Shown in pieces: positions 39,715 through 55,416 of a DNA stretch of 64,000 nucleotides (positions are counted from its first letter, which is position 1; each line of letters opens with the position of its first letter). The notes under the pieces were generated by a model. It was not told the origin of the DNA, did not search any database, and was given only the letters and a program-made list of their open reading frames with translations. The DNA comes from Bradyrhizobium genosp. L. GTDB lineage: Bacteria > Pseudomonadota > Alphaproteobacteria > Rhizobiales > Xanthobacteraceae. The stretch lies in assembly GCF_015624485.1 (NCBI RefSeq), contig NZ_CP061378.1, positions 1,612,001-1,676,000 of the forward strand, written 5' to 3'. A program made the translations under genes and the position numbers.

Positions 39715-40592
39715 GCGGCAGCCTCCGCGATGATCGCATCGAGCCGGGGCGAGATGAAATGAATATCTTCCTCATCCTTCAGCGCCACACCGATCGAGCG
39801 CTTGAACGCGTCGGGCCAGCGCGTCCCGCCCTTGTTGAGCAGGGTTGCGGCCTCCGCCCAGTCGACGGCTTCGGCGATGCCCGGCGCCTTGCTCAGCGGC
39901 TCGCGGCGCAGGCGGCCGACCGCCGCCACGACGGCGCGCGCCGTAGCCTCGGCGACGCTCGACGCCCGCATCATCACGATGCGCGCCTCGCGCTCGGCAT
40001 TGGGATAACCGATCCAGTGATAGACGCAGCGGCGGCGCAGCGCTTCGTGCAAATCGCGGGTCCGGTTCGACGTCAGCACCACGACGGGATGCTCGGCGGC
40101 GCGGACGGTGCCGCGTTCCGGGATCGAGATCTGGAAGTCGGAGAGGAATTCGAGCAGGAAAGCCTCGAACTCCTGGTCGGCGCGATCGATTTCGTCGATC
40201 AGCAGCACCGTTGCATCCGGCGCGCGCAACGCGGCGAGCATCGGGCGCTCGATCAGGAAGGATTCGCCATAGATGTCGATGCTCTGTTCGCCTGCTTGCC
40301 GGATCGCCAGCATCTGGCGCGGATAGTTCCACTCGTAGAGCGCCGATGCGGCGTCGATGCCCTCATAGCATTGCAGGCGGATCAGCCTGCGGCCGAGCAC
40401 CGCGGCGATCGCCTTCGCCGCCTCGGTCTTGCCGACACCCGGCGCGCCCTCGAGCAGCAGCGGCTTGCCGAGCGCGAGCGAGAGATAGGATGCGGTCGCG
40501 ATGCCGTCGTCGGCGAGATAATAGGCCGCGCGCAGCGCCTTCTCCAGCGCCTCCGGGCTGTCGATGCCGACGATGTTGCTGCGAACCGGCAT
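39711..40592 (-). CDS. coxD: MoxR-type AAA+ ATPase, CoxD family
   Basis: AAA+ chaperone-like ATPase: Walker A EGAPGVGKTEAAKAI, Walker B TVLLIDEIDRADQEF, sensor 1 VVLTSNRTRDL, and an arginine finger region EALRRRCVYHWIGYP. 293 residues. In carboxydotrophs CoxD remodels the apo-enzyme so that the copper-sulfur or sulfurated Mo site can form. It follows the large-subunit C-terminal gene by 9 bases and overlaps coxE. Confidence 0.9.
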   Translation of the reverse strand: MPVRSNIVGIDSPEALEKALRAAYYLADDGIATASYLSLALGKPLLLEGAPGVGKTEAAKAIAAVLGRRLIRLQCYEGIDAASALYEWNYPRQMLAIRQAGEQSIDIYGESFLIERPMLAALRAPDATVLLIDEIDRADQEFEAFLLEFLSDFQISIPERGTVRAAEHPVVVLTSNRTRDLHEALRRRCVYHWIGYPNAEREARIVMMRASSVAEATARAVVAAVGRLRREPLSKAPGIAEAVDWAEAATLLNKGGTRWPDAFKRSIGVALKDEEDIHFISPRLDAIIAEAAA

Positions 40593-40601: not shown

Positions 40602-41624
40602 TCAGCGCCGCGGTTGCGGCCGGGCGCCGCCCTGTGCCTTGATCGCGCGCAGCACCTTCTCCGGCGTAATCGGCAGATCGTCGATCCGCACCCCGACCGC
40701 ATTGAAGATCGCATTGGCGACCGCGGGCAGCACAGGATTGGCGCACATTTCGCCCGGCCCCTTGGCGCCGAACGGGCCGTCCGGCGCCGGACGTTCCAGC
40801 ACCGCGATATCGTGCGGGCAGATGTCACCCGGACCCGGCATCAGATATTCGACGAAGTCGCGCGGGCCGTGCACGGGATCGGGATAATAAGGCTCGGGCG
40901 TCTCGTACAGCGCGTGGCTGACGCCCATCCAGGCACCGCCGACCAGCTGCTGCTCGACCAGGCGCGGATTGAGCGCGCGGCCGAGCTCATAGGCCGAGTC
41001 CATCCGGATCATCGCGACCTCGCCGGTCTCGTCGTCGACCTCGAGCTCGGCGACGAGGCAGGCATGCGCGTAGCAGGTCGCTGGCGACATCTCGCCGGTC
41101 TCCGGATCGACGTCGGACAGCGGCACCAGGAAGATGCCGCGGCCCGAGATGGTCTTGCCCTGCTTGAACTGGGCGGCTATGGCGACGTCCTTGGTCGAGA
41201 TCGAACGGTGCGGTGCGCCCTTGATGTGGATATTGCCGCGGCCGTCGGTTTCGAGGTCGGCGGCGTTGACCTCGAGCTCCTCGGCGGCCGCCTCCATCAT
41301 CACGCCGCGCGCCTCCCGCGCCGCCGCCATCACGGCATTGCCGACGCGATGCGTGCCGCGCGAGGCGAACGAGCCCATGCAGTGCGGACCGGTATCGGAA
41401 TCCGCTGTGTCGACATAGACGTCCTCGACGGGCACGCCGAGCGTCTCGGCGCAGATCTGCCGCGTCACCGACTTCATGCCCTGGCCGAGATCGATCGACG
41501 ACAGCGCCACGGTGAATTTGCCGCTGGGATTGGAATGCACCAGTGCCTGGCTCGGATCGCCGCCGAGATTCATGCCGATGGGGTAATTGACCGACGCGAT
41601 GCCGCGTCCGCGATGCCTGGTCAT
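40602..41624 (-). CDS. Molybdenum hydroxylase large subunit, C-terminal half (separate gene)
   Basis: Second half of a xanthine-dehydrogenase/CoxL-type molybdopterin subunit. It has the cofactor motif SSIDLGQGMKSVTRQ near residue 45, DSDTGPHCMGSFASRGTHRVGNA, and GPFGAKGPGEMCANP near 285, which contains the catalytic Glu. It begins MTRHRGRGIASVNYPIGMNL, exactly where intact homologues continue after the first domain pair. ATG 41624 is preceded by a perfect AGGAGG (41633-41638, minus strand) at 8-base spacing, inside the end of the upstream gene, so it is translated on its own. 340 residues. Confidence 0.9.
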   Translation of the reverse strand: MTRHRGRGIASVNYPIGMNLGGDPSQALVHSNPSGKFTVALSSIDLGQGMKSVTRQICAETLGVPVEDVYVDTADSDTGPHCMGSFASRGTHRVGNAVMAAAREARGVMMEAAAEELEVNAADLETDGRGNIHIKGAPHRSISTKDVAIAAQFKQGKTISGRGIFLVPLSDVDPETGEMSPATCYAHACLVAELEVDDETGEVAMIRMDSAYELGRALNPRLVEQQLVGGAWMGVSHALYETPEPYYPDPVHGPRDFVEYLMPGPGDICPHDIAVLERPAPDGPFGAKGPGEMCANPVLPAVANAIFNAVGVRIDDLPITPEKVLRAIKAQGGARPQPRR

Positions 41625-41626
41625 GC

Positions 41627-43213
41627 TTAGCGCCTCCTGGTACCGAAGACGGAAGAGAAACGCGTGGCGCCATGCGACGGCGCATTGGGTCGCGGCGGCG
41701 AGGGTGGTGCCGGCGGAGGAGGCGGTGGCGGCTCACGGGTCGCGGCCGGTGCGCGGTCATATGTCGTGCGCTGCTGGGCCGGGGCGGCGGCCATCGGCGC
41801 ATGCGTCTCGCGCGGCGTCAGCGGGACGGCTGCGCGGAGACCGCCGCCATCCTTGCGCGACGACATCTGCCTGAACTCCTCGCGCAGCGGCCATTTCGCT
41901 TTCTCGGCGGCGACCTGCACGCATTCGATCAGCGCCGTGTTCTTGGCCTCGCGGCGATGCGCCTTCATGTCGCCGTCGCGATACGCATTGAGGATGCGGA
42001 ACTCCATCGGGTCCATGCCGACGAGATGCGCGAGCTTGTCCATCTGGCATTCGATGGCGAAGTCCATGGCCGTGACGCCGAAGCCGCGCATCGCGGTCGC
42101 CGGCGTCCGGTTGGTGAAGACGCAATAGACGTCGCCATGGACATTGGGGATCGTGTAGGGACCGGGCAGATGCGCGGCGCATTTCACGGCGGCGTAGCTC
42201 GACAGCCGCGTGTAGGCGCCGCTGTCGAAATAGGCGCGCACCTTGCGTGCGACGACGCGGCCATCACGCATCACGCCATCCTTGATGTAGATGCGCTCGG
42301 CGCCGCGCGGCGGGCCATATTGCATTTCCTCCTCGCGCCCGAACAGATAGCGCACCGGGCGTCCCGTCAGCATCGCGCCGAGGATGCACAGCGGCTCGGT
42401 CAGCGTATCGACCTTGCCGCCGAACCCGCCGCCCACGGTGCCGCCGATGAAATGGAAGGTGTTGGACGGCATATCGAGGATCTTTGCGCAGGTATCGACC
42501 GAGAAGAACAGCGCCTGCGTCGAGGTGTAGACGATGTAGCGGCCATTGGTGTCGGGCGCTGCGATCGAGCCGTTGGTCTCGGTCGGCGCGTGCTCGATCG
42601 GCGACATCTGGTAGCGCTGCTCCAGCACATGGTCGGCGGAGGCGAGCGCATGGTCGGCATCGCCGAAGCGCAGCTGCTGGCGATCATAGGTCTCGTGATA
42701 GGTGAAAGTGTTCTTGGGATAGACCTCGTTGACGACGGGCGCGCCCGGCTTCAGCGCGTCCTCGACGTCGAACACCGCCGGCAGCACCTCGTAGTCGATC
42801 TTGACCTTTGCGATGGCCTCATAGGCCTCGCGCGGGCTGTCGGCGACGATGGCGACGATGGGCTCGCCCTTGTAGCGCACCTTGTCGACTGCAAGCGACG
42901 GCTCGTCGTCCTTGCCGAAATTGATCAGGCTGAGCAGCGTGTTCAGGTTGCGTGGCACGTCAGAGGCGCGGATGACGCGACGCACGCCCTGCGACCGCTC
43001 GGCCTCAGACGTGTCGATGCGGCGCAGCCTTGCATGCGAATGCGCGCTGCGCACCACCTTCAAATGCAGCATGCCCTGCAGATTATGGTCGTTGAAATAG
43101 GGCGAGGTACCGGTGACATGGCCGAGCATGTCCTGGCGCTGCGTGCCTTTGCCGATTTCCTTGAGATTGTCGTCGCGCTCGTCGGCGAACAGGTCCTTGC
43201 GCAGTTCCAGCAT
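41627..43213 (-). CDS. Molybdenum hydroxylase large subunit, N-terminal half with Pro-rich tail
   Basis: First half of the molybdopterin subunit: aldehyde-oxidase a/b hammerhead (TGTSPYFNDHNLQGMLHLKVVRS), the cofactor motifs GGTVGGGFGGK and TPATAMRGFGVTAMD. After about residue 440 the family sequence ends and a low-complexity tail follows (REPPPPPPPAPPSPPRP), finishing FSSVFGTRRR at TAA 41627-41629. The next gene supplies the missing half after 2 bases. An ordinary frameshift is unlikely: the tail is long and Pro-rich, and the downstream gene has its own strong ribosome site. 528 residues. It assembles with the FAD and 2Fe-2S subunits upstream to hydroxylate an aromatic heterocycle or aldehyde. 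Confidence 0.9.
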   Translation of the reverse strand: MLELRKDLFADERDDNLKEIGKGTQRQDMLGHVTGTSPYFNDHNLQGMLHLKVVRSAHSHARLRRIDTSEAERSQGVRRVIRASDVPRNLNTLLSLINFGKDDEPSLAVDKVRYKGEPIVAIVADSPREAYEAIAKVKIDYEVLPAVFDVEDALKPGAPVVNEVYPKNTFTYHETYDRQQLRFGDADHALASADHVLEQRYQMSPIEHAPTETNGSIAAPDTNGRYIVYTSTQALFFSVDTCAKILDMPSNTFHFIGGTVGGGFGGKVDTLTEPLCILGAMLTGRPVRYLFGREEEMQYGPPRGAERIYIKDGVMRDGRVVARKVRAYFDSGAYTRLSSYAAVKCAAHLPGPYTIPNVHGDVYCVFTNRTPATAMRGFGVTAMDFAIECQMDKLAHLVGMDPMEFRILNAYRDGDMKAHRREAKNTALIECVQVAAEKAKWPLREEFRQMSSRKDGGGLRAAVPLTPRETHAPMAAAPAQQRTTYDRAPAATREPPPPPPPAPPSPPRPNAPSHGATRFSSVFGTRRR

Positions 43214-43225: not shown

Positions 43226-43705
43226 CTACGCGCGAGCCCGGCCGCCGGATGCGGCGGCGAGCACGGCGTTGATGATCGGCTCATAGCCGGTGCAGCGGCA
43301 GATATTGCCCGAGATCGCCTCGACCACCTCGGCGCGGCTCGGCTGCGGATTGCGGTCGAGCAGCGCTTTTGCGGCCATCAGCATGCCCGGCGTGCAATAG
43401 CCGCACTGCGCGGCGAAATTATCGGCGAAGGCGCGCTGCAGCGGATGCAGGTTGGGGCCGTCCTTGATGCCGTCGAGCGTCTCGACCGAGCGGCCGGCGA
43501 CCGTCTCGGCCAGCGTCAGGCAAGACAGATGCAACTCGCCGTCAACAAGCACGCTGCACGTGCCGCAGCCGCCCTGGCCGCAACCGAATTTCGGCGTCAT
43601 GTCGCCGATCAGCTCGCGCAGCGCGACCAGGAGATTGGTGCCGCCGTCGACGAAGATCGCGACGTCGCGGCCGTTATGGCGGAATTGCAGGGGAGTTTTC
43701 GCCAT
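43226..43705 (-). CDS. Molybdenum hydroxylase 2Fe-2S subunit (CoxS/XdhC-type small subunit)
   Basis: Carries both iron-sulfur clusters of the enzyme: plant-ferredoxin-type motif CGQGGCGTC with a fourth Cys in HLSC, and the all-alpha motif CGYCTPGML with NICRCTGY. 159 residues, standard size. It passes electrons from the Mo site to the FAD subunit. It lies between the FAD subunit (6 bases upstream) and the large subunit (12 bases downstream) in the order M-S-L typical of CO-dehydrogenase-like operons. Confidence 0.95.
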   Translation of the reverse strand: MAKTPLQFRHNGRDVAIFVDGGTNLLVALRELIGDMTPKFGCGQGGCGTCSVLVDGELHLSCLTLAETVAGRSVETLDGIKDGPNLHPLQRAFADNFAAQCGYCTPGMLMAAKALLDRNPQPSRAEVVEAISGNICRCTGYEPIINAVLAAASGGRARA

Positions 43706-43711: not shown

Positions 43712-44530
43712 CTATTCCTGACCGGACAACAGGCGCTTCAGATGCACGCCGACGATCTCGCGGCGATACCAGGCGCTGGCGATTGCATTGTCGCCGGGCG
43801 AGGTGCCTTCGACAGCGGCTGCGGCGGCCGCGTTGATCGTGGATGCATCGAGAGCGCGCCCTTCCAGCGCGCGCTCGGCGGCGCGGGCGCGGATCGGGGT
43901 CGGCGCCATCGAGCCGAGCGCGATGCGCGCGCCGACAACGCGGCTGCCGTTGACCGGTAAATGCGCGGCCAACGTGATCACGGCGCCACCTTTCGGCTTG
44001 ATCCGTGCGATCTTGCGGTAACGGAAGGCCTCGGAGTTGCCGGGCTTCGCGAAAGAGATCGCGAGCACCAGCGCGCCGGCCTGCCGGTCGCGCGATTGCA
44101 GGAATTCCTCCAGCGCGATCTCACGGCCGCCAAGGCCGCCCTGGACCGATACGACAGCATCGAGCGCCAGCATCGCGACGGTGAAGTCGCCATACGGAAC
44201 GGGCGCGAACAGGTTGCCGCCGATGGTGCCCATGTTGCGCACCGCCGGTCCGCCGATCGAGCGGGCCGCGGCATGCAGGAAAGCAAGCTCGCGCTCGGCG
44301 AGGATGCGCGCATAGGTGACGCCGGCGCCGAGCATGATCCGCGCGCCCGAGGTGTCGATCCTCGTCATCGCCTGGTCGCTTGCGCGCACGATGGTCGAGA
44401 TCGAGATATCCCCCTCGTTCAGCGCCCGCATCACCAGCGTGCCGCCGCCGAGATAGCGCGCGCCGCGATCCGACGACAGCGCCGCCGCCGCGTCATGGGT
44501 GCTGGTGAAGGTCTTCACCGTGATGGGCAT
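43712..44530 (-). CDS. Molybdenum hydroxylase FAD-binding subunit (CoxM-type)
   Basis: Medium subunit with the two FAD pyrophosphate motifs: ARYLGGGTLVMRAL near residue 30 and VRNMGTIGGNLFAPVPYGDF near 100-120. A C-terminal CO-dehydrogenase flavoprotein domain follows (KPKGGAVITLAAHL). 272 residues. It transfers electrons from the clusters to the final acceptor. Confidence 0.94.
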   Translation of the reverse strand: MPITVKTFTSTHDAAAALSSDRGARYLGGGTLVMRALNEGDISISTIVRASDQAMTRIDTSGARIMLGAGVTYARILAERELAFLHAAARSIGGPAVRNMGTIGGNLFAPVPYGDFTVAMLALDAVVSVQGGLGGREIALEEFLQSRDRQAGALVLAISFAKPGNSEAFRYRKIARIKPKGGAVITLAAHLPVNGSRVVGARIALGSMAPTPIRARAAERALEGRALDASTINAAAAAAVEGTSPGDNAIASAWYRREIVGVHLKRLLSGQE

Positions 44531-44545: not shown

Positions 44546-44989
44546 TTACGCGGCCTCCTTCAGATGCCGGCGGATCGCCTCGAAACCGGCTTGATAGATG
44601 TCTTCCGCAACCATCTGCGTGATGCGATCCATGTCCTCCGGCCGGGTCGAGAAGCGCGATTCCCAGTGCCAGAAGGTGCGGTCGCCATCGGTGACCGGCA
44701 GCAGACGGACATGCGCCACATAGTTGAACATCGGGATCGGCGTATCGAGCAGGCAGTAGCTGAACGACTGCTCCAGATCGGACAGCGCCAGCAATTGCTC
44801 GCGCAGTTCGGCACCGTCCTTCAGCTTGAATCGCCTGACACAACCAACCTTGTCCGAAGATTGCGCGCGCTCGATCGCGCTGGTCGCGACCGCAGGATGC
44901 CAGCGGTCGTGGCCATTGAAATCGCGCAGCACGGCCCACGCCGCGTCGGTCGATGCGTCCAGGATCGTGCTTTTGACGATATGCGGCAC
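44546..44989 (-). CDS. SRPBCC/START-like protein, copy 2 (CoxG-like context)
   Basis: Small helix-grip protein of the polyketide-cyclase/START superfamily, with a hydrophobic cavity for a lipid-like or aromatic ligand. I place the start at GTG 44989 (VPHIVKSTILDAS), where similarity to the paralogue at 45205-45642 begins; there is no clear ribosome site, and the frame runs upstream into a non-coding repeat. Shared motifs with the paralogue: RDFNGHDRWHP, SDKVGCVRRFKL, LLPVTDGD. 147 residues. CoxG, a related protein, anchors CO dehydrogenase to the membrane in carboxydotrophs; the same is possible here. Confidence 0.82.
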   Translation of the reverse strand: MPHIVKSTILDASTDAAWAVLRDFNGHDRWHPAVATSAIERAQSSDKVGCVRRFKLKDGAELREQLLALSDLEQSFSYCLLDTPIPMFNYVAHVRLLPVTDGDRTFWHWESRFSTRPEDMDRITQMVAEDIYQAGFEAIRRHLKEAA

Positions 44990-45035
44990 GGCTACAATCC
45001 AACATCTGACGTTTGCACCGATATTGGCGCGCGCA

Positions 45036-45168
45036 TCACCTCTCCCCAACGGGGAGAGGTCGCGCCGGAGGCGCGGGTGAGGGGGCTCAGGTCTCTCGAT
45101 AGACCGCAACCCCTCACCCGGATCGCATCTGGCGATGCGATCCGACCTCTCCCACAAGGGGAGAGGTG
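45036..45168. repeat. Dispersed palindromic repeat, CTCTCCCC/GGGGAGAGG family, copy 2
   Basis: Begins CACCTCTCCCCAACGGGGAGAG and ends CTCTCCCACAAGGGGAGAGGTG, with GGGTGAGGGG and CCCCTCACCC in between, plus GGATCGCATC-TGGC-GATGCGATCC. Same layout as 6664-6808. It sits between the two paralogous SRPBCC genes, where a strong hairpin could lower expression of the downstream hydroxylase genes or end one transcript. Confidence 0.8.
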
Positions 45169-45204
45169 GACCGTCTGCGTGGCTGTGAGTGATCGATGCA
45201 TCCG

Positions 45205-45642
45205 TCAGCCTCCAAATGCCCGCTTCAGGGCGTCGAAGCCGCCCTGGAACACGCCGCCGCCGATATTGTTGACCAGCTCCGCCTCCCGCTCCTGGGCGCA
45301 ATCGAACTCCGCCGTCCATTCCATGAAGGTCTGGTCGCCGTCGGTGACCGGAGTCAGCCGCAAGGTCGCGACGTAGTTCTCGACGCCCATCGGCGATTCC
45401 AGGATCGAGTAGGTGCAGAACATGTCGTAGTCGGAGAGCCCGAGCAGCTTCTCCCTGATCCGGTCGCCATTGCGCAGCCGGAAATCCCTGACGCAGCCGA
45501 TCTTGTCCGAGGGCTCGCCGCCCTCGATGCGGCTTTCGGCGATCGCGGGATGCCAGTTCGGCAGGCCGTTGAAGTCGCGCACCCGGGCCCAGACGCGGTC
45601 GTTGCGGGCGTTGACGACAGTGGAGACGTAGACTCGTGCCAT
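45205..45642 (-). CDS. SRPBCC/START-like protein, copy 1
   Basis: Helix-grip fold protein, 145 residues, starting MARVYVSTVVNARNDRVWARVRDFNGLPNWHP. Paralogue of the next gene downstream, sharing RDFNG..WHP, SDKIGCVRDFRL, ENYVATLRLTPVTDGD and a Trp-rich strand. No catalytic residues can be assigned. It follows the giant flotillin gene by 9 bases on the same strand, so the flotillin, the SRPBCC pair and the hydroxylase may share a transcript. Confidence 0.88.
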   Translation of the reverse strand: MARVYVSTVVNARNDRVWARVRDFNGLPNWHPAIAESRIEGGEPSDKIGCVRDFRLRNGDRIREKLLGLSDYDMFCTYSILESPMGVENYVATLRLTPVTDGDQTFMEWTAEFDCAQEREAELVNNIGGGVFQGGFDALKRAFGG

Positions 45643-45651: not shown

Positions 45652-48546
45652 TCAGTCCTTCTTGCGCGGCGTACGCTCGGGGCGCGCTGGCTCGCCGCCG
45701 CCTTCGGGCGCGGCCGGCTTGGCTTCGCCGCCGCTCTTGCGCGCGGAGTCCTTGATGCCCTGCATGTCGCGGGCCTCGCGGATCAGGCCGGGCATTTTGG
45801 CGAGGCTGCCGCCCTCGACGCCGATGTCGGAGAGGATCGAATCGATCAGCGGCGCCTGCACGCGATAGCGCAGCGCGGAGTCGATCACCTCGTCGGTGGC
45901 GCTGCGGCCGCTGCCATTGCCATGGCCGTTGCCGTTGAGCCCATCGACCTGGAGGATGCGGATGCCCTCGATCTTCTCCATCGGCTTGACGCTCTCGCGC
46001 ACGATGCCCTCGATGCGGTCGAGCAGCTTGCGGCGGAACAGCGAGTAGCGCGCCTGGTCGGTCAGCACGTTCTCGGCTTCGTTGAGCAGGCGTTGCGCCT
46101 CAGCCTCGACCGTGGCGCGGACACGCTCGGCCCCGGCCGCGATCCTGGTCTCCTCGGCCTGCTTCTCGGCGAGCAGCACCTCGACGGTCTTGCGCCGTTT
46201 TGCGATCTCGCTCTCCCGGGCGGTCACGACGCGCTCGGCCGCTTCAGTGGCATGCATCCGCGCTTCCTCGGCCGCGGCGCGCGCTGCGGACTCTTCCAGC
46301 GATTTCTGATGGATCGCAATAGCCTTCTCCATCAGCGTGGTCTCGACGTCCCTCTCGCGGTTGACCTCGAGCTTGCGCAGCTCGCGTTCACGGCCGACCC
46401 TGGCCTCGTCGAGGCCGCGGTCCGAAGCAATACGCGCGCGCTCGACCTCCTCGCGCGCGGCGATCTCGGCCTCCTGCAGCGACTGGTTGCGCGAGACTTC
46501 GAGCTGCTCGATGGAACGGCGCCGCGCGATCCGAGCCGCCTCCAATGCCTGCTCACGCGAGACGTCGGTGGTCTCGACTTCCTTGCGGGCCACGATCTCG
46601 GCCTGCTTGACCTGCCGATCGGCGTCGATCCGTTCCGAGCGCTTGGCGGCGAGCGCGATCACGCGTTCCTCGTCGGCGAGCTCGATCGCCTTCTTCTGGT
46701 CGATGTTCAGCACCTCGCGGGTCCGGGAGGAGGCGATCCGCTCGCTCTCCAGCGTCAACTCGACATCGATGCGCTGCCGCTCGATCGCGTCGCGGCGCTT
46801 CAGCTCGGCGGCCTCGATCGCCTCGGTGCGCTTGATCTCGAGCCCGCGGGTCTCCTGCTCGGCGCGAATGCGCTGCGCGGCGACGGATTTCTCCTGTGCA
46901 ATGCGCGCCGCCTCGATCGCTTCGCGCGCGGCGATATCGGCTTCCTCGATCGTGCGGGTGCGCGCGATCTCGAGCGCCCGGACGTGTTCCTCCTGCGCGA
47001 TCCGCGACGCTTCGGTGGCGTCGCGCGCCGTAATCCCCGCGATCTCGACGGCCTGGTTGCGTTCGATTTCGAGCTTGCGCGTGGTGTGATCGGCGCTGAT
47101 GCGCTCGGCGGCGAGCGTCTTCTCTCGGGTGATGCGCGCTGTTTCGACCGCCTTCTGCGCCTCGATCTCGGCCTCCTGGATGGTGCGGACCTGATGGATT
47201 TCCAGCGCGCGGGTGCGTTCGTCGGAGGAAATCCGCTCGACATTGACTGTCATGGTCTGAGCGATGCGTGCCTTCTCGGTCGCCTCGCGGGCAGCGATCT
47301 CGGCCTCCTCGACGGCGCGGGTGCGCTCGATCTCGCGCCGGCGGGTCTCTTCCTCGTTGGCGATGCGGGCGTCGGTGACGACGCGATCCTGCTGGATGCG
47401 CGCCTTCTCGATCGATTCGCGGGCGGCGATCTCGGCTTCCTCGACCGTGCGCATCCGCTCGATCTCGCGCTGGCGAACCTCGCGCTCCGAAGCAATGCGC
47501 GTGGTGTCGACCGCGCGCTGGTTGGCGATCCTGGCCTTCTCGATCTCCTCGCGCGCCAGCAGCTCCTTTTCTTCCACCGCGCGGGTCCGCTCGATCTCCC
47601 GGTGCCGGGTCTCGCGTTCGGAGGCTATCCGCGCCTCGGTGATGGCTTGCTCATTGGCGATGCGGGCCTTCTCGATGGTTTCGCGCGCGGTGATCTGGGC
47701 CTGTTCGGCCTCGGTCTCGCGCAGCGCGCGTTCGCGGGCGACCTCGGTGCGTTGCAGGGCGCGGCGCATCTCGATGTCGCGTTCCTGCTCCAGGCGCGCG
47801 GTCTCGCTCTCGCGCTCGATGTCCAGCGCCTGCCGCTCGGCCTCGAGGTTGCGGGTGCGGATCTTGATCATCGAGTCCTGTTCGATGTCGTTGCGCAGCT
47901 TGCGCCTGGCCTCGATGTCCTCCATCAGGCGGGTCAAGCCTTCGGCGTCGAAACGGTTCGAAGGATTGAAATATTCGAGGTCGGTCTGATCGAGGTCGGT
48001 GATCGCGACCGATTCCAGCTCGAGACCGTTCTGCGCCAGCGCTTCCGCGGCGTTGGCCTTGACGCGCGCGACATAGTCGCCGCGCTGCTCATGCATCTGC
48101 TCCATGGTCATTTCGGAGGCGACCGAGCGGATCGCGGAGATGAACTTGCCGGAGAGCAAGGTGTGCAGCTGCTCGGGCTCCATGGTGCGGCGGCCGAGCG
48201 TGGCGGCGGCGATCGACACCGCTTCGCGAGTCGGCTGGACGCGGACGTAAAAATCGGCCTCGATGTCCACGCGCATGCGGTCGCGGGTGATCACGGCGTC
48301 CTGCCGGGAGCGCACGATCCCCATCGGCAGCACGTTCATGTTGACCGGCGTGGTGTCGTGGATGAACGGTAGCACGAAGGCGCCGCCGTTGATCACCACG
48401 CGTTCGCCGAGGAAGCCGGTGCGGACGAAGGAGACCTCCTTCGATGAGCGGTGGTACAGCCAGTTCACGACATAGACGATGATGATGATCGCGACGATTG
48501 CGACGATGAGCCAGAGGATCAATTCACCTGCCAGCATCCCCGACAT
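45652..48546 (-). CDS. Giant flotillin-like (SPFH) membrane protein with 31 hendecad repeats
   Basis: 964 residues, about twice the usual flotillin length. One N-terminal membrane helix (about 9-30: LILWLIVAIVAIIIIVYVV), an SPFH/PHB domain (about 32-230; SFVRTGFLGERVVINGG, VDIEADFYVRVQP), then a long charged helix. From residue 284 to 624 there are 31 consecutive 11-residue units, each with Ile or Leu at its second position (RIANEQAITEA, EIERMRTVEEA, EIAARESIEKA), grouped mostly in 44-residue sets. The helix continues to about 830, followed by a C-terminal region with a Gly/Asn linker (NGNGHGNGSG) and a Pro-rich end. Flotillins oligomerise at the inner membrane to organise microdomains. GGAGGAAGAT precedes the ATG. 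Its job in this cluster is unknown. Confidence 0.93.
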   Translation of the reverse strand: MSGMLAGELILWLIVAIVAIIIIVYVVNWLYHRSSKEVSFVRTGFLGERVVINGGAFVLPFIHDTTPVNMNVLPMGIVRSRQDAVITRDRMRVDIEADFYVRVQPTREAVSIAAATLGRRTMEPEQLHTLLSGKFISAIRSVASEMTMEQMHEQRGDYVARVKANAAEALAQNGLELESVAITDLDQTDLEYFNPSNRFDAEGLTRLMEDIEARRKLRNDIEQDSMIKIRTRNLEAERQALDIERESETARLEQERDIEMRRALQRTEVARERALRETEAEQAQITARETIEKARIANEQAITEARIASERETRHREIERTRAVEEKELLAREEIEKARIANQRAVDTTRIASEREVRQREIERMRTVEEAEIAARESIEKARIQQDRVVTDARIANEEETRRREIERTRAVEEAEIAAREATEKARIAQTMTVNVERISSDERTRALEIHQVRTIQEAEIEAQKAVETARITREKTLAAERISADHTTRKLEIERNQAVEIAGITARDATEASRIAQEEHVRALEIARTRTIEEADIAAREAIEAARIAQEKSVAAQRIRAEQETRGLEIKRTEAIEAAELKRRDAIERQRIDVELTLESERIASSRTREVLNIDQKKAIELADEERVIALAAKRSERIDADRQVKQAEIVARKEVETTDVSREQALEAARIARRRSIEQLEVSRNQSLQEAEIAAREEVERARIASDRGLDEARVGRERELRKLEVNRERDVETTLMEKAIAIHQKSLEESAARAAAEEARMHATEAAERVVTARESEIAKRRKTVEVLLAEKQAEETRIAAGAERVRATVEAEAQRLLNEAENVLTDQARYSLFRRKLLDRIEGIVRESVKPMEKIEGIRILQVDGLNGNGHGNGSGRSATDEVIDSALRYRVQAPLIDSILSDIGVEGGSLAKMPGLIREARDMQGIKDSARKSGGEAKPAAPEGGGEPARPERTPRKKD

Positions 48547-48571: not shown

Positions 48572-49405
48572 TTAGCGCGCGCCGATCGCCTTGAATTTAC
48601 GAACCTGATCCGTCAGTGCCCGCTCCACCGGCAGGCGCTCCATCGAGGAGGCGCCGTAGAAGCCGTGGCAGTTGCGGGTCTGCTTCATGATGAAATCGGC
48701 ATCGGCGGGGTCGGCGATCGGACCGCCATGCGCGAGCACGATGATGTCGGAATTGACCGCGAGCGCGGCCTCGGCCCAGGCCTCGATCCGGGCAGGGCAG
48801 TCGGCGAGCTTCAGCGCGGTCTGCGCGCCGATCGTGCCGCCGGTGGTCAGGCCCATGTGGCAGACGATGATGTCGGCGCCGGCGATCGCCATCGCGGCGG
48901 CTTCCTGCTCGCTGAACACGTAGGGCGTGGTCAGCATGTCCTTGTCATGGGCCTTGGCGATCATGTCGATCTCGAGTGCATAGGACATCCCCGTTTCCTC
49001 CAAGTTGGCGCGGAAGGTGCCGTCGATCAGGCCGACGGTCGGGAAATTCTGCACGCCGGCGAAGCCGAGCGCCTTGATCTGGTCCAGGAACAGATCCATG
49101 TCGCGGAACGGATCGGTGCCGTTGACCCCGGCAAGTACCGGCGTCTTGCTTACGACCGGCAGCACTTCGCCGGCCATCTCGACCACGATGGCGTTGGCGT
49201 CGCCATAGGGCATCAGGCCGGCAAGGGAGCCGCGGCCGGCCATGCGGTAGCGGCCGGAATTGTAGATCACGATCAGGTCGACGCCGCCGGCCTCTTCGCA
49301 TTTTGCGGAGAGGCCGGTGCCGGCGCCGCCGCCGACGATCGGCTCGCCGCGCGCGACCATGTCGCGAAATCTCTTCAGCAGCGCCGCGCGTTCAAACCTG
49401 GCCAT
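48572..49405 (-). CDS. PEP-hydrolase-family TIM-barrel protein (Tm-1 C-terminal domain type)
   Basis: TIM-barrel protein of the phosphoenolpyruvate-hydrolase-like family: [88 protein letters not shown], and [15 protein letters not shown]. 277 residues. The same domain forms the C-terminal half of plant Tm-1, whose N-terminal half is UPF0261; here the UPF0261 part is encoded 3 bases upstream as a fusion to an ABC ATPase. Reaction unproven in bacteria. Confidence 0.9.
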
Positions 49406-49408: not shown

Positions 49409-51619
49409 TCACCTCGCCACTCTCCGCCGACCACCGGCGCGTCCGAGCAAAGGACGGAACGCGCTGACGATGGCGGCGGTGAACTCGGGATCGTTGATGT
49501 TGCGCTTGATGCGGATGATCTGTCGGTTGCTGGTTTGGCGCACGGTGCGCTCCAGCGCGCCGAACAGCGCCGCGTCGGCATCGGGGTCCCAGAACGGCTG
49601 GCCAGGCGCATCGAGCGCGGAGACGCCGCCTTCGGGGAGGAAGAAGCGCACGATGCCGTCCATCTGGTTCAGCCTGTCGCCGATCCAGCGGCCGATCCGC
49701 TCGTTTTCGTCCGGCGTCGTCCGCATCAGGGTGACCTGCGGATTGTGGACGTGGAATTTACGCTGCCGGTAGCGTTCGGGGATGGTGTCCGGCGCACCGA
49801 AGTTGACCATGTCGAGCGCGCCGACCGAACCGACATAGGGCACGCGGCTGCGGATGATGGCACCGAAGCGGTCGTCGGTCGCCGGGAATACGCCGCCCAT
49901 CAGGAGGTCGCAGACTTCGGTCGTGGTGAGATCGATCACGCCGGCGATCTGGCCGGACTCGACCAGCTTCTCCATCGAGCGGCCGCCGACGCCAGTGGCG
50001 TGGAACACCAGGCATTCGAAGTCCTCGCGCAAGTCGGCTGCCATCTTCTGGACGGCCGGCGTCGTCACACCGAACATTGTGATGCCGATCGCGGGCAGGC
50101 CGGAGCCTGCGTTACGCGGCTTGCTCGACTGTTCATCGAGCCGCGCCTTGACCATGCCGACCAGCGCGTTGGCGCCGTTGCCGAGCACCGTGCGCGAGAT
50201 CGCGTTGAGGCCCTGCACGTCGGTCACGGAATACATCATGGTGATGTCGGCCGGGCCGACATAGGGACCGACATCCCCGGAGGCGACCGAGGAAATGATG
50301 AGCTTCGGCACGCCGACCGGCAGCGCGCGCATCGCCGGCGCGACCAGCGACGCACCGCCCGACCCGCCGGCCGAGATGATTCCCGCGATATTGCCCTGAC
50401 GGCGCAGCCATCGTTCGAATGCCTCCGCCATCGCGGTGACCGAGGCGCCGCGATCGCTGCCGAACACGCCCGAGCCGCCACGGCCATGATTCAGCGCGAT
50501 CTCCTGCGCCGTGACATCGCAGCTCGCCGCCTTGCCGCTGGTCGAGACATCGACCAGGCGCGTGCGCAGTCCGCTGCCCGCAATGATGTCGCGGATGAAG
50601 CGCAGCTCGGCGCCCTTGGTGTCGAGCGTGCCAACGACCAGCACGACGGGTGGCCCCGACGTCCTCGATGCCACAGGCTCGCTCGTTCGGCGATTTGTCC
50701 CGTCCAACCGCGTGACACCCGCGGATTGCGTCCGTGCCGCCGCCTCGATCCGGGCGATCGGCACCGGTCGCGACCAGCGCGTCGGGAGCACGGGATTGGA
50801 GACGTAGATGCGGACCGGGCCCTTGCGTTCGGGTTGCGGGCCGCCGGCGGCGTCAGTCTTCGCCGGTCGGACCTCGACGTCGGTCTCGTCGCTGCCATGC
50901 GTGCCGACGCCGAGCAGCCGCTGCTGCAACTCGCGGTCGGCGGCAAGGCGCGCGGAGTCGATGATGCGGTTGATACGGCCATTGACCATGATCGCGACGT
51001 TCTGCGACACAGCCGTCGCCACGCCGATATTCTGCTCGATGACCAGGACCGAGATGTCGCCTTCGTCGCCGAGCCGCAGCAGCATCTCCTCGACCTGCGC
51101 CACGATGACGGGCGCCAGCCCCTCGGTCGGCTCGTCCATGATCAAGAGCTGCGGGTTGGTCAGCAGCGCGCGCGCGATCGCGAGCATTTGCTGCTCGCCG
51201 CCGGAAAGCTGGCTGCCGCCGTGACCCTTGCGCTCGGCGAGCCGCGGGAAGGTGTCGTAGATGCGTTCGGCCGTCCAGGCGCCGCGCCGCAGGCCGCCGG
51301 CAAGTGCGAGATGCTCGTCGACGGTGAGCGAGCGCCACAGCCGCCGGCCTTGCGGCACATAGCCGACGCCGAGCCGGGCGATCCGCGCCGGAGGTTGCCG
51401 CGTTACCTCTTCGCCTCGGATCCGGATCGAGCCGGCGCTGACACGAACCAGGCCCATGATCGCCTTGCACAGGGTGGTCTTGCCCATGCCGTTGCGGCCG
51501 ACCACCGAGAACACGCCGGAAGAGAGCGTGAGGTCGACGCCCTGCAGCGCGTGCGAATGCCCGTAATAGACATCGAGGCCCTTCACCTCGAGCGCGGGAG
51601 CTGTGCGGCGGTCATTCAT
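49409..51619 (-). CDS. Fusion: LivF-type ABC ATPase + UPF0261/Tm-1-like ATP-binding domain
   Basis: Residues 8-240 are a branched-chain-type ABC ATPase: Walker A GRNGMGKTT (41-49), signature LSGGEQQMLAIARAL, Walker B LLIMDEPTEG. After an 80-residue charged linker (about 240-322), residues 323-728 form a complete UPF0261 domain: VVLVVGTLDTKGAELRFIRD, LGNGANALVGMVKARL, FHATGVGGRSMEKLVESG, DLTTTEVCDLLMGG, and a GRWIGDRLN C-terminal helix. UPF0261 is the ATP-binding N-terminal domain of plant Tm-1. The fused ATPase replaces LivF in this operon. The start overlaps the LivG-like stop. 736 residues in one frame. Confidence 0.92.
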   Translation of the reverse strand: MNDRRTAPALEVKGLDVYYGHSHALQGVDLTLSSGVFSVVGRNGMGKTTLCKAIMGLVRVSAGSIRIRGEEVTRQPPARIARLGVGYVPQGRRLWRSLTVDEHLALAGGLRRGAWTAERIYDTFPRLAERKGHGGSQLSGGEQQMLAIARALLTNPQLLIMDEPTEGLAPVIVAQVEEMLLRLGDEGDISVLVIEQNIGVATAVSQNVAIMVNGRINRIIDSARLAADRELQQRLLGVGTHGSDETDVEVRPAKTDAAGGPQPERKGPVRIYVSNPVLPTRWSRPVPIARIEAAARTQSAGVTRLDGTNRRTSEPVASRTSGPPVVLVVGTLDTKGAELRFIRDIIAGSGLRTRLVDVSTSGKAASCDVTAQEIALNHGRGGSGVFGSDRGASVTAMAEAFERWLRRQGNIAGIISAGGSGGASLVAPAMRALPVGVPKLIISSVASGDVGPYVGPADITMMYSVTDVQGLNAISRTVLGNGANALVGMVKARLDEQSSKPRNAGSGLPAIGITMFGVTTPAVQKMAADLREDFECLVFHATGVGGRSMEKLVESGQIAGVIDLTTTEVCDLLMGGVFPATDDRFGAIIRSRVPYVGSVGALDMVNFGAPDTIPERYRQRKFHVHNPQVTLMRTTPDENERIGRWIGDRLNQMDGIVRFFLPEGGVSALDAPGQPFWDPDADAALFGALERTVRQTSNRQIIRIKRNINDPEFTAAIVSAFRPLLGRAGGRRRVAR

Positions 51620-52394
51620 GGCCGCCTCCGAGATAGAGCTCCTGCACCTCGGGATCGGTCTCGATCTCGCGCGGAGGGCCTTCCTTGAAGATGCGGCCGT
51701 TGTGCATCATCGTCACGCTCTCGACCACGCGCAGCGCGACGTCCATGTCATGCTCGATGATGATGTAGCCGATATGCGCCGGCAGCGAGGTCAGGATCTC
51801 GATCAACTCGCGGCGCTCGGTCGGCGACAATCCTGCCGCCGGCTCGTCGAACAGGATGAAGCGTGGCGCGCCGGCGAGCGCCAGCGCAATCTCCAGCTGG
51901 CGTTGCTGGCCGTGGGCGAGCTCGGCAACGCGTTGGTCCTTCACGGCGGTGAGATGCACGGCTTGAACCAGCGTCTCGGTCGCGTGCATCAGCGCGTCGT
52001 TCTGGCCGGGGCGGAGGAACGAGAAGCGGCCGCGCGAGACGCCACGGCAGGCGAGGTAGACGTTGTCCTGTACCGTGAGGCCGGGGAACAACGCCGAGAT
52101 CTGGTAGGTGCGGCGCAGGCCGCGGCGGATCCGTTCGTAAGGCGGGAACTGGGTGATGTCCTCGCCGAAGAAGCGGATGGTGCCGGATGAGGGCGGGAAG
52201 TCGCCGGTGATGCAGTTGAACAGCGTGGTCTTGCCGGCGCCGTTGGAGCCGAGCACCGCGCGCCGCTCGCCGGGACGGACGGTGATAGTGACGTCGGTCA
52301 GCGCCGCCAGCGCGCCGAACAGCCGCGTCACGCCGCGCAGCTCCAAGGCCGCACCGGCGCCGACCGCGGACAGTCGCTGTGCGACGCTATCCAT
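51612..52394 (-). CDS. Branched-chain-type ABC transporter ATP-binding protein (LivG-like)
   Basis: Cytoplasmic ATPase: Walker A GSNGAGKTT, a divergent signature ELAHGQQRQLEIALAL (usual for LivG), Walker B FILFDEPAAGLSP, and the H-loop IIEHDMDV. 260 residues. Overlaps the LivM-like gene by 8 bases at its start and the LivF fusion by 8 bases at its end, so the three are co-translated. Confidence 0.94.
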   Translation of the reverse strand: MDSVAQRLSAVGAGAALELRGVTRLFGALAALTDVTITVRPGERRAVLGSNGAGKTTLFNCITGDFPPSSGTIRFFGEDITQFPPYERIRRGLRRTYQISALFPGLTVQDNVYLACRGVSRGRFSFLRPGQNDALMHATETLVQAVHLTAVKDQRVAELAHGQQRQLEIALALAGAPRFILFDEPAAGLSPTERRELIEILTSLPAHIGYIIIEHDMDVALRVVESVTMMHNGRIFKEGPPREIETDPEVQELYLGGGHE

Positions 52395-53472
52395 GGCGGC
52401 CTCCGCGTGAGCGCGTTGCAGAGGAGGTGTTGCGGCGGCGCCAGCGTTCCCACAGGCCGATCACGCCGTCGGACGACCAGAACACGATGGCGAGGAAGCC
52501 GAGCCCGATCAGCAGCCGGAAGCGATTGCCGTCGAGCCCCACCTTGACCAGCAGGTCGATCGCAAATGTCCGCAGCAGGACGAAGATCAAGGCACCGATG
52601 AACGGGCCGATCGGCCGCGTGATGCCGCCGACCACGGCGATGATCAGGACGTCGATGCAGGCGTTGACGCTGACCGAGCCCGGCGAGATTTGCCGGTAGT
52701 TCCAGACCTGCAGCACCCCTCCGAGCGCGGCGATGAAGGCGGCGAAGGCATAGGCTGCGATGCGGTGCGCATTGGGATTGAAGCCGAGCGCGGCCATGCG
52801 GCGCGAATTGTCGCGCACGCCTTGCAGCGCGAGGCCGAACGGGGCGCGCGAGATGTACTGGACCGCGAAGTAGCAGATCGCGGCGACGCTGAGCGTCACG
52901 TAGTAGAAGGCGATATCTGCGCGCCAGTCGACACCCCAGAAATGCGGCGTCGCGATCGTGTTCATGCCGGTATGGCCGTTGAAGATCGCCCAGTTCTGGT
53001 TGGTGAAATAGTAGAACGCCGCGCCGATCGCCAGCGTGATCATGATGGTGTAGATGCCCTCGGTGCGCACCGCGAGCGCGCCGCCGAGCGTGCCGAACAG
53101 CGTCGCCAGCGCCAGCGCCATCGGGGTCGCCAGCCACCATGGCCAGCCCAGGCTGATATTCGCGTTGCCGCTGACGCCGAACACCGCGACCATGTAGCCG
53201 GCAAAACCGGCGATGGTGAGCTGCATCAGGCTGACCATGCCGCCATAGCCGGCGAGGAACATCAGGCTGAGCGCGATGATGCCGAGGATCAGCGTGGTGG
53301 CGAAGATCTCGATCAGGAAGAAGCCGTTGGCGATGACAGGCATGATCACGAGGATCAGCGCCACCAGCCATGCCGCCGGGTTCTGGAACTCCGGCCAGGC
53401 GCGGATGAAGGCGCGGCGCGCCGTTGATGCGGTGGCGTCGGGGCGAAGCTGGGTGCTCTGCAACAGCGACAT
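52387..53472 (-). CDS. Branched-chain-type ABC transporter permease (LivM-like)
   Basis: Inner-membrane permease with about ten hydrophobic segments (AAWLVALILVIMPVIANGFFLIEIF, ATTLILGIIALSLMFLAGYGGMVSLMQ) and the LivM motif ALQGVRDNSRRMAALGFNPNAHRIAAYAFAA. 361 residues. Starts one base before the end of the LivH-like stop. Confidence 0.94.
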   Translation of the reverse strand: MSLLQSTQLRPDATASTARRAFIRAWPEFQNPAAWLVALILVIMPVIANGFFLIEIFATTLILGIIALSLMFLAGYGGMVSLMQLTIAGFAGYMVAVFGVSGNANISLGWPWWLATPMALALATLFGTLGGALAVRTEGIYTIMITLAIGAAFYYFTNQNWAIFNGHTGMNTIATPHFWGVDWRADIAFYYVTLSVAAICYFAVQYISRAPFGLALQGVRDNSRRMAALGFNPNAHRIAAYAFAAFIAALGGVLQVWNYRQISPGSVSVNACIDVLIIAVVGGITRPIGPFIGALIFVLLRTFAIDLLVKVGLDGNRFRLLIGLGFLAIVFWSSDGVIGLWERWRRRNTSSATRSRGGRHG

Positions 53473-54483
53473 TCATCGCCTCGCGAGCAGGCCCTGCGGC
53501 CGCACTGCCAGCACCAGCACCATGATCAGGAAGGTGACGACGATGGCGTAGGTCGGGATGTAGACCGAGCCGAGCTGTTCGGCGAGGCCGATGATGACGG
53601 CGCCGAGTGCCGCCCCCGGGATCGAGCCCATGCCGCCGACGATCACGACCACCAGCGAGGCGAGCAGGAAGCGGGTGTCCTCGCCTGGCGACAGCGACTG
53701 GAAGGTGCCGCCGACGACGCCGGCGATGCCGGCCAATCCAGCGCCGAGCGCGAACACCAGCACGAAGACGAGCTGGATCCGCACGCCTGTCGCCGCCAGG
53801 ATGTCGCGGTCGTCGACGCCGGCGCGCACGATCATGCCGATCCGGGTGCGGTTGAGCGCGAGCCACATCGCGACGCCGATCACGACGGAGGCGGCGAAGA
53901 TCACCAGCCGCACCAGCGGATATTGCAGATAGACCGGCTCGCCGGAGGATTTCACCGCCGTGAGCAGCGGCAGCTGTACCGGGCCGATCAGCCAGCTAGG
54001 GGTCTGGATCTGGTAGAAGTCGCCGCCGAACACCCACAGCATCAGGTCGGCGAACACGATCGACAGACCGATCGTCACCATGGTTTGCCTGAGGTCCTGG
54101 CCCTCCATGCGGCGGAACACGGCAAGCTGCAGGATCACGCCGAGCGCCGCCACCGCGATGAAGGCGACGATGAAGCTCAGGATCCACGACCCGGTCCAGG
54201 TGCTGATGGCGTAGCCGATATAGCCGCCGAACAGATAGAGCGAGCCGTGCGCGAGGTTGACGTTGCGCATCAGGCCGAAGATCAGCGTGAAGCCGCTCGC
54301 CACCAGGAAATACAGCCCGCCGAGCGTGATGCCGTTGAGCACCGCGTTGAGGAACACGCGCTTGCGGCCGATCGCGGCTTCCAGCCCCGGCGGCCAGATC
54401 GCGAACACGAGCCACAGCAGCACCGCGATCGCGATGATTGCGATCAGCGCCCAGGCCGGATGGCGTTCGATGAAGGAGGCCAT
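53473..54483 (-). CDS. Branched-chain-type ABC transporter permease (LivH-like)
   Basis: Partner permease with NGITLGGLYFLVASGFTLIFGLMRNVNLAHGSLY, the LivH fingerprint, then about seven further hydrophobic segments and MWLALNRTRIGMIVRAGVDDRDILAATGV. 336 residues. An extra N-terminal helix (HPAWALIAIIAIAVLLWLVFAI) precedes the usual start. It follows the AraC gene by 114 bases. Confidence 0.94.
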   Translation of the reverse strand: MASFIERHPAWALIAIIAIAVLLWLVFAIWPPGLEAAIGRKRVFLNAVLNGITLGGLYFLVASGFTLIFGLMRNVNLAHGSLYLFGGYIGYAISTWTGSWILSFIVAFIAVAALGVILQLAVFRRMEGQDLRQTMVTIGLSIVFADLMLWVFGGDFYQIQTPSWLIGPVQLPLLTAVKSSGEPVYLQYPLVRLVIFAASVVIGVAMWLALNRTRIGMIVRAGVDDRDILAATGVRIQLVFVLVFALGAGLAGIAGVVGGTFQSLSPGEDTRFLLASLVVVIVGGMGSIPGAALGAVIIGLAEQLGSVYIPTYAIVVTFLIMVLVLAVRPQGLLARR

Positions 54484-54597: not shown

Positions 54598-55416
54598 TTA
54601 CGGCCGCAACACCTTGGCGGCGCGGCGATAGTCGGTCGGGGCCATGCCGACATTGGCGGCGAAGAAGCGGGTGAATCCGCTCTGCGAGGAGAAGCCGAGG
54701 TCGAAGCCGATATCGGCGATCGGCGATTCCGTCGCGACCAGTGCATCCAGCGCCTGCTCCATGATCAACGTGTTCATGTAGAGGTGTGGTGTGACGCCGG
54801 TCTGGGTGCGGAACAGCCGGTAGAAATGCGGCCGCGACAGGCCGGCTTCGCGCGCGATCGCGTCGAGCTCGATCTCGGCGCCGGGGCTTTCCGACATCAG
54901 CTTGATCGACTTGCGGACCCGGAAATCGGTGACCGCAGCCGTCGCCCGCGCCTCGGCTGCCGCCTGCCAGCTCTCCTCGTAGCAGGAATCGATCAGTTGC
55001 CGCAGCTCGCAATCGAGGCTGCGCAGCGATGGCGCGCCGCACACCAGCGCTGCGGTGCGGCGGATCAATTTGTCGAGCGCCGCGGTGCGGGGAAAGAAGG
55101 TGCGGCCGAACCGCATGGCTTGCGTATTGGCGCCGGCGGGCGCGAACCATTCGGCGTTGACATAGAGCACGAAGAAGATCGCGCCGTGGTCGATGTCGGC
55201 CGGCAGAAAATTGTGCGGCTCCCATGGGTTGACCGCGACCACGGTATCATCCTTGAGCAGCCAGCGCTGCTCGGAGACGTCGATCTGCGCCGGCGTACCG
55301 CCGACATGAAAGATCAGGTGCCCTTCGCGGTGCGCATGCACGTTGAAGGGACGGTTCAACTGATAGACCGTCGCGCGGCCGAACCGGCCGTGGAAGACGG
55401 CAAGCGCCCTGCTCAT
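54598..55416 (-). CDS. AraC-family transcriptional regulator
   Basis: N-terminal cupin-type effector domain (FNVHAHREGHLIFHVGG, VVAVNPWEPHNFLP) and C-terminal double helix-turn-helix (about 170-272: ELDAIAREAGLSRPHFYRLFRTQTGVTPHLYMN, SPIADIGFDLGFSSQSGFTRFFAANVGMAPTDYRR). 272 residues. It is encoded inside the transporter cluster, between the binding-protein and LivH genes, on the same strand. Control of the whole 22-kb cluster is the natural inference. Confidence 0.92.
   Translation of the reverse strand: MSRALAVFHGRFGRATVYQLNRPFNVHAHREGHLIFHVGGTPAQIDVSEQRWLLKDDTVVAVNPWEPHNFLPADIDHGAIFFVLYVNAEWFAPAGANTQAMRFGRTFFPRTAALDKLIRRTAALVCGAPSLRSLDCELRQLIDSCYEESWQAAAEARATAAVTDFRVRKSIKLMSESPGAEIELDAIAREAGLSRPHFYRLFRTQTGVTPHLYMNTLIMEQALDALVATESPIADIGFDLGFSSQSGFTRFFAANVGMAPTDYRRAAKVLRP

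Follow-up and report, generated by a model that had tools for sequence, protein, structure and literature searches.

A giant flotillin of Bradyrhizobium and an 11-residue length rule in proteobacterial flotillins

The 64,000-nucleotide stretch of Bradyrhizobium genosp. L analysed here (the window) raises the question of how a flotillin came by a coil built of dozens of 11-residue repeats (hendecads), and whether this coil has to do with the enzyme genes beside it.

The giant flotillin and its coil

The gene, intact and encoding 964 aa, was identified by its open reading frame, translation and Pfam matches at 45652..48546 on the minus strand, which also carries every feature located below. In line with the original prediction of a flotillin, both Pfam Band_7 (SPFH; 62.4 bits against a cut-off of 23.6) and the C-terminal Pfam Flot (127.8 bits against 27) exceeded their cut-offs. 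The SPFH/Band_7 domain (PF01145) covers residues 47-193 (47968..48408), and the Flot domain (PF15975), expected to form a basket cap, covers residues 793-910 (45817..46170). With the FloT equivalog model NCBIfam NF058507, the protein scored 23.9 bits against a curated cut-off of 700, and among the neighbours analysed with Pfam none matched an NfeD family as a partner gene. By eye, a hydrophobic N-terminal segment was found at residues ~6-31 (48454..48531), followed by the basic YHRSSK; judged in this way, the segment is probably a membrane anchor and the coil cytoplasmic.

Row tiling and scoring resolved residues 284-624 (46675..47697) into 31 uninterrupted hendecads with Ile (29 rows) or Leu (2 rows) at position 2 in 31/31 rows, exactly as had been predicted, and the proposed 44-residue supermodule was likewise visible in the rows, its one shortened set lying at 515-536. 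The predicted 11-residue signal was present on periodicity analysis of ILVMF, with a power of 43 at a period of 2.75 (=11/4) compared with 0.06 at 7 and 0.51 at 3.5, which rules out a heptad reading of this coil, and identity autocorrelation against shuffles gave z=7.0 at lag 11, 20.0 at lag 44 and 15.4 at lag 88. The coil thus shows the dominant 11-residue periodicity over many repeats that marks a hendecad coil. Tandem Repeats Finder reported a 132-base tandem, four hendecads per unit, at 47263..47598 (2.5 copies, 74% matches). While the 31 rows stood, residue 624 is not the end of the array: after a phase slip at residues 625-638 (46633..46674), where tiling gives a step of 14 in place of 11 (a 3-residue slip), a second array of eight rows runs over residues 639-726 (46369..46632). 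Similarly, the estimate of about 50 nm holds for the 31 repeats alone, whereas the SPFH anchor and the Flot anchor are 635 residues apart, corresponding by arithmetic to ~95 nm of helix at a rise of 0.15 nm per residue. Two opposite hydrophobic faces in the coil were not significant, the ratio being reached in 22.5% of permutations, and this result was therefore left out as evidence for a wall.

Spacing between the SPFH and Flot domains

Spacings between profile anchors ranged from 236 to 855 residues in 178 distinct flotillins. These came from 193 measured frames, fifteen of which repeat the same protein by the last 250 residues; seven loci with an SPFH anchor and no in-frame Flot anchor, mostly cut at contig ends, were dropped (L033, L067, L070, L094, L109, L123 and L128). 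Taken modulo 11, the spacings of the 178 fell into class 5 (75 proteins), class 8 (99) and class 1 (4) and into no other, so that three of eleven classes were used, each 3 or 4 residues from the next. Many of the 178 flotillins are close relatives. The rule was also obeyed by 40/40 ordinary flotillins fetched later and outside anchor building, a hand-chosen subset of the listed matches. In a scan of moduli 5-19 on the 31 spacings known then (a 32nd, 283, was added later), 11 alone stood out with 3 classes filled, while random draws for modulus 11 filled a mean of 10.5 classes and a minimum of 8 in 2000; in a control from the same stage, 41 distinct C-tail lengths filled all 11 classes. The genome's own paralogue (L002) was considered as an off-rule outlier at 259 by pairwise anchors, and was rejected as such when profile anchors gave 258, which is in class. 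These results indicate that, within the proteobacterial set studied, SPFH-to-Flot spacing is quantised in units of 11.

The view that ordinary flotillins have heptad-like coils was not upheld, as they follow the 11-residue length rule and showed no heptad peak in periodicity. Their hydrophobic period was 2.78-2.80 in 11 of 12 with spacings up to 280, not exactly 2.75, and the coil of E. coli YqiK peaked at 2.71. The human flotillin-2 wall stretch had no 2.75 peak, its top period being 2.24, and the rule is therefore not extended beyond Proteobacteria. PMC11260169 also describes human flotillin as lacking heptads.

Length changed often. When the coil was left out of tree building, the 78 rows required no fewer than 36 changes of length and only 5 of phase; for the 52 long rows among them the figures were 25 and 2. 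A first tree had kept 89 of 117 rows by thinning Bradyrhizobium rows with spacing 635, and some long-branch, further same-genus and duplicate rows were also left out of the 78. The long form of the flotillin constitutes one clade. Among seven hand-picked close pairs, four differed by a single indel of 11, 11, 88 or 132 residues (78-90% identity), one by an indel of 44 (63% identity) and one by 33 plus 44, and one pair of the same length needed no indel; these are length differences between relatives, unpolarised as to gain or loss. Hand-picked pairs at greater distance required several gaps, some of which were not multiples of 11. Together with the 132-base tandem, the indels support the predicted growth by 33- and 132-base units.

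The spacing was 635 in the measured Bradyrhizobium orthologues except in a metagenome-assembled genome titled Bradyrhizobium (L133; 547). It was 635, with total lengths of 960-971, in the 26 other genomes of the genus that carry an orthologue, which rules out a fast-evolving tandem repeat within the species group; total length reached 975 on named Bradyrhizobium contigs, the variation lying in the C-tail. The word giant is thus deserved for an unusual length and is relative only, 635 being typical of Bradyrhizobium and the longest spacing among relatives being 855.

Neighbouring genes and the molybdenum hydroxylase

Families of the neighbours were assigned by Pfam. Directly upstream of the flotillin lies a gene for a PEP_hydrolase-type TIM-barrel protein (48572..49405; PF09370, 438.6 bits), which we take to be one Tm-1-like half, the other presumably being the UPF0261 protein fused to a LivF-type ATPase at 49409..51619. 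Beyond these are a branched-chain-type ABC importer (51612..54483; LivG 51612-52394, LivM 52387-53472, LivH 53473-54483), an AraC-type regulator (54598..55416) and a periplasmic binding protein (55545..56792). Downstream, two SRPBCC proteins (both PF10604) are encoded at 45205..45642, with 3cnw, named XoxI, as best solved match, and at 44546..45319, where the Pfam domain begins at residue 113 and the true start is probably further in. They are followed by the FAD (CoxM-like; 43712..44530) and 2Fe-2S (CoxS-like; 43226..43705) subunits of a molybdenum hydroxylase, the N half (41627..43213; MoCoBD_1) and C half (40602..41624; MoCoBD_2) of its molybdopterin subunit, an AAA ATPase (39711..40592; AAA and AAA_5) that we take to be MoxR/CoxD from its position beside CoxE, a CoxE-like VWA protein (38596..39714; PF05762), an amidohydrolase (37709-38599), a metallo-beta-lactamase fold protein (36815-37663) and an SMP-30/isochorismatase fusion (35216-36802).

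The best solved matches of the N and C halves were the large (3hrd_A) and medium (3hrd_B) subunits of nicotinate dehydrogenase, and the enzyme appears from its sequence to be a split nicotinate-dehydrogenase-like molybdenum hydroxylase. A Mo-Cu CO dehydrogenase was ruled out, since the large subunit is split and both halves match 3hrd best. The active-site motif of CoxL in that enzyme, which we take to be AYXCSFR, was not found, the putative motif stretch in the translation reading TAMRGFG by eye. Whole-chain CoxL models scored far below cut-off on the split subunit, as expected of a half chain.

The PEP-hydrolase gene was upstream in 85 of 86 long flotillins, and hydroxylase genes followed in 76 of the 77 long-flotillin loci that left 5 kb or more of room, compared with 0/20 shorter-flotillin loci, 11 of which had a PEP-hydrolase neighbour. 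Most of the support for the hydroxylase link comes from a single clade.

A proposed basket wall that grows by hendecads, and its alternatives

We favour, with reasonable though far from full confidence, the explanation that in-register duplication lengthened the wall helix of a YqiK-type flotillin, giving a basket wall of 11n lengths. The coil, ~2.5-fold longer than in relatives of ~560-590 residues, would have arisen by duplication of an older 11-residue unit. By homology with the human flotillin cage, many copies may stand side by side with SPFH on the membrane and Flot closing the far end. Because 11 residues make three whole helix turns, gain or loss of a hendecad would raise or lower the basket by ~1.65 nm of helix while cap and base kept their mutual orientation, and in-register duplication would be favoured for the same reason; lengths off the ladder would be selected against, and the rare phase changes of 3 or 4 residues would amount to about one turn. 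More tentatively, the tall basket might be a cytoplasmic membrane scaffold for the operon proteins, foremost the molybdenum hydroxylase. A strict 11-residue rule implies that helix rotational phase is kept from base to cap, as a continuous wall needs; it can be checked in any flotillin and would offer a simple means of designing baskets to a set height. As even near relatives differ in natural length, height could be tested as a variable. In an extension that we regard as improbable, bacterial flotillins would form baskets of adjustable height in 11-residue storeys, and one alphaproteobacterial clade, with ~80-130 nm of helix, would enclose the molybdenum hydroxylase and SRPBCC helpers in a protein-walled, membrane-floored compartment.

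Unequal recombination of 33-base repeats could quantise length without any selection, the steps then being a mutational signature and phase structurally irrelevant. DNA identity at lag 33 is indeed raised in long coils (0.417 vs 0.313 at neighbouring lags), and some inserts resemble their neighbours, such as the 88-residue insert of one relative (L131) at 78% DNA identity against a background maximum of 77%, values that lean upwards as the best over many shifts. Yet the rule also holds in ordinary flotillins, whose repeats are far weaker (DNA 0.372 vs 0.324; mean z 3.5 at lag 11 and 0.95 at lag 44), and the spacing classes lie 3 or 4 apart rather than arbitrarily. We regard this account as rather unlikely. 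We give still less credence, and less than to the enclosed compartment, to a rod or tether, in which a dimer or small oligomer would reach from the membrane to a distant cytoplasmic partner: hendecads go well with a rod that is almost straight and the present data leave oligomer size free, but the 11-residue rule holds at ordinary lengths too, and the domains at the two ends, SPFH and Flot, are of the flotillin type, whose human members form a cage (PMC11260169).

A serious contender, to which we give somewhat less than even weight, is that the flotillin serves as a generic scaffold for membrane domains and that its operon position says nothing about the hydroxylase. The core of Liv, UPF0261, PEP-hydrolase, flotillin and SRPBCC genes also occurs with spacings 258 and 379 without the hydroxylase, and in all five such loci that were inspected the second SRPBCC gene has a zinc alcohol dehydrogenase as its fusion partner. 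Furthermore, one locus with a long coil lacks hydroxylase genes (L148), another retains a CoxM-like match as its sole hydroxylase match (L122), and one genome has the hydroxylase module and no match to the giant flotillin (G050); because of these exceptions the link is weakened as functional proof. Against this, in counts read off the tables, long flotillin and close orthologues of the hydroxylase and PEP-hydrolase, separated from weaker homologues by a score gap, occurred together in 26 of 35 other same-genus genomes and in 0 of the remaining 9.

Comparison with known systems

Hendecad amplification is already known outside flotillins; the hendecad-family survey of Martinez-Goikoetxea and Lupas in 2023 reportedly covers coils of 11-residue repeats and names such amplification as a route to new coils. 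Our literature search, outside which that survey lay, found no paper on hendecad amplification in flotillins. The tetrabrachion stalk of Staphylothermus marinus, likened here by description only, shares with the giant flotillin a long non-heptad coil. That stalk is hendecad and right-handed, and belongs to a surface-layer protein not known to be related to flotillins. PMC11676326 names it as a non-canonical coiled-coil stalk. Nicotinate dehydrogenase (PDB 3hrd) is a likeness of the neighbouring molybdopterin subunit, not of the flotillin itself.

According to PMC11260169, the wall of human Flotillin1/2 is a right-handed barrel, 22 nm high, in which heptad-free helices of 186 residues stand next to one another, and the helices of SPFH walls are put at 44-189 residues. 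In the giant forms the wall helix would be roughly three or more times as long as the 189 residues at the top of that range. The human cage, with its SPFH base, single-layer helical and heptad-free wall and capped end, is the likeness on which the putative basket is modelled (PMC11260169); the two differ in that the sequence match reaches only E=0.0085 and the flotillin-2 stretch lacks the 2.75 periodicity. E. coli YqiK, an inner membrane protein of the flotillin family, has SPFH and Flot by the same profiles, and its spacing of 247 (class 5, profile anchors) stands on the same ladder, while it differs in its 553 aa, in a coil 2.6 times shorter and in its setting, yqiK lying beside yqiJ (annotated as a DUF1449 membrane protein) and not in the operon of the giant flotillin.

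The hendecad array of the giant flotillin

Translation of the ORF at 45652-48546 on the minus strand gave a protein of 964 residues with the layout of a flotillin: a hydrophobic N-terminus, an SPFH/Band_7 domain (residues 47-193) and, beyond a long charged region, a Flot domain (793-910), with Band_7 and Flot both far above the Pfam cut-offs. The original prediction that this protein carries a long run of 11-residue repeats was borne out, and was somewhat understated. Residues 284-624 form 31 rows of eleven, with Ile at position 2 in 29 rows and Leu in two, and tiling placed eight further rows in a second hendecad stretch at residues 639-726, after one step of 14 replacing 11. Hydrophobic power reached 43 at a period of 2.75 residues, with next to none at heptad periods. 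Identity autocorrelation peaked at lags 11, 44 and 88, and the DNA contains a 132-base tandem repeat (47263-47598, 74% matches). An antisense ORF of 1058 codons (45196-48372, plus strand) crosses the gene and is probably a shadow of the repeat's codon pattern.

A ladder of coil lengths

We measured coil length as the spacing between an SPFH anchor (residue 200 in giant flotillin numbering) and a Flot anchor (residue 835). Sampling of 35 other genomes from the genus found full-length orthologues in 26. These are 960-971 residues long in total, and the spacing is 635 in every one; a shorter paralogue of 584 residues lies elsewhere in the same genome as the giant flotillin. Long-form spacings in other families run from 536 to 855. 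Locus L133, from a MAG titled Bradyrhizobium, has a spacing of 547 and is placed elsewhere on the tree, and locus L090, on a contig titled Frankia sp. RB7, has a flotillin with a 91% identical SPFH part that falls among Bradyrhizobium, so that this title is probably wrong.

Among 178 distinct flotillins, many of them close relatives, profile anchors yielded 32 different spacings between 236 and 855, which are separated by multiples of 11 except for shifts among three classes (spacing modulo 11) lying 3 or 4 apart: class 8 holds 99 proteins, class 5 holds 75, class 1 holds four, and none falls outside. When the 31 spacings known at that stage were tested against every modulus from 5 to 19, 11 alone stood out, with three classes; random spacings occupied a mean of 10.5 classes modulo 11 and a minimum of 8 in 2000 draws versus the three observed, related sequences not being independent draws. 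As a control, the C-terminal tail lengths of the same proteins (41 distinct) occupied all 11 classes. All 40 ordinary flotillins fetched from outside the anchor set once the rule was known obeyed it (38 in class 5, two in class 8), and E. coli YqiK, with a spacing of 247, belongs to class 5. On a tree of SPFH and Flot without the coil (78 rows), at least 36 changes of spacing stood against five changes of class, and the 52 long rows by themselves required 25 and two, respectively.

Seven flotillin pairs, picked by hand, were aligned. A single 11-residue indel separated two pairs (90% and 78% identity), single indels of 88, 132 and 44 residues separated one pair each (80%, 83% and 63% identity), another pair differed by indels of 33 plus 44, and one same-length pair was gap-free. 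Most of the more distant pairs need several gaps, not every one a multiple of 11, while loci L140 and L143 differ in class by one event of 80 residues (7 x 11 + 3). The 88-residue insert of locus L131 shares 78% DNA identity with its neighbour, barely over the background maximum, and the two 11-residue inserts tested for such likeness were within the in-register background. The mean z at lag 11 was raised in long, intermediate and ordinary coils alike (8.7, 5.3 and 3.5), and at lag 44 it was 15.9, 5.9 and 0.95, the last not evident as a signal, which suggests that the hendecad is the older unit and the 44-residue supermodule the later one. Hydrophobic periods of 2.78-2.80 in 11 of 12 short coils, and of 2.71 in E. 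coli YqiK, argue against complete hendecad regularity in ordinary flotillins.

Gene surroundings and the molybdenum hydroxylase

The flotillin gene lies in a long minus-strand run, the upstream part of which encodes a periplasmic binding protein, an AraC regulator, LivHMG, a LivF-type ATPase fused to UPF0261 (49409-51619, minus strand, by Pfam) and a PEP-hydrolase-type protein. From the flotillin onward follow two SRPBCC genes, FAD and 2Fe-2S subunits, a molybdopterin subunit that Pfam places in two minus-strand genes 2 bases apart (40602-43213), a MoxR-like AAA protein, a CoxE-like VWA protein, an amidohydrolase and others; Pfam also identified a fusion of SMP-30/gluconolactonase and isochorismatase domains (35216-36802, minus strand). 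UPF0261 and the PEP-hydrolase-type protein correspond to the two halves of Tm-1-like proteins. Their genes are also adjacent in two other genomes, G053, which has no match to the giant flotillin, and G058, whose flotillin paralogue is encoded elsewhere. Between the two SRPBCC genes, a dispersed repeat (45060-45215) with 47 matches in the genome at E <= 0.001, query included, overlaps the N-terminal extension of ORF 44546-45319, an extension that is unlikely to be real. Both molybdopterin halves were best matched by the two-chain nicotinate dehydrogenase 3hrd, and not by CO dehydrogenase.

Of the long-flotillin loci, 77 have 5 kb or more of sequence downstream, and 76 of these carry FAD, Fe-S and molybdopterin genes. 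The molybdopterin halves are separate frames in 76 of the 77, and the counts include many close relatives; the hydroxylase genes occur in none of 20 shorter-flotillin loci, 11 of which have a PEP-hydrolase neighbour. L147 is a further long locus with the hydroxylase genes, L148 is a long locus with an aldehyde dehydrogenase and no hydroxylase genes, and at L122 a CoxM-like match alone remains. The long form groups as a single clade (bootstrap/SH-aLRT 96/88), and the link is therefore essentially one event, well retained. Genome G050 carries the hydroxylase module, with its subunit likewise split, and no match to the giant flotillin. Five loci with a spacing of 258 or 379 (L050, L054, L055, L059 and L066) carry a fusion of the second SRPBCC gene with a zinc-type alcohol dehydrogenase, and no hydroxylase genes lie downstream of their flotillin.

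Comparison with known flotillin cages and Cox proteins

According to PMC11260169, the human flotillin cage, with a height of 22 nm, has a right-handed wall of side-by-side, heptad-free helices of 186 residues, and SPFH wall helices span 44-189 residues. A wall helix with unchanged packing partners along its whole length must hold its phase, eleven residues amount to three helix turns, and the observed length ladder is the trace to be expected in the sequence from a wall of this kind. The anchor-to-anchor stretch would form a helix of about 95 nm if straight, and the height of the basket would depend on tilt. We only infer such a wall for the giant flotillin, from homology and the ladder, because a test for two opposite packing faces on the coil helix was not significant and the human flotillin-2 stretch differs in having no 2.75 period.

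PMC4240915 describes CoxD and CoxE of a CO-oxidising bacterium as helping the enzyme to mature, and CoxG as its proposed carrier to the membrane; by analogy, we speculate that a flotillin basket could have a similar purpose here.

Hendecad families were reportedly surveyed by Martinez-Goikoetxea and Lupas in 2023. That survey may mention such proteins; in the literature searched, no paper was found combining flotillin or SPFH with hendecad, or flotillin with molybdenum hydroxylase, and the matches for flotillin with '11-residue' appear unrelated, judged by their listing. Hendecad amplification as a process is already known, and what appears to be new here is a flotillin with a quantised wall length, greatly lengthened in the giant flotillin.
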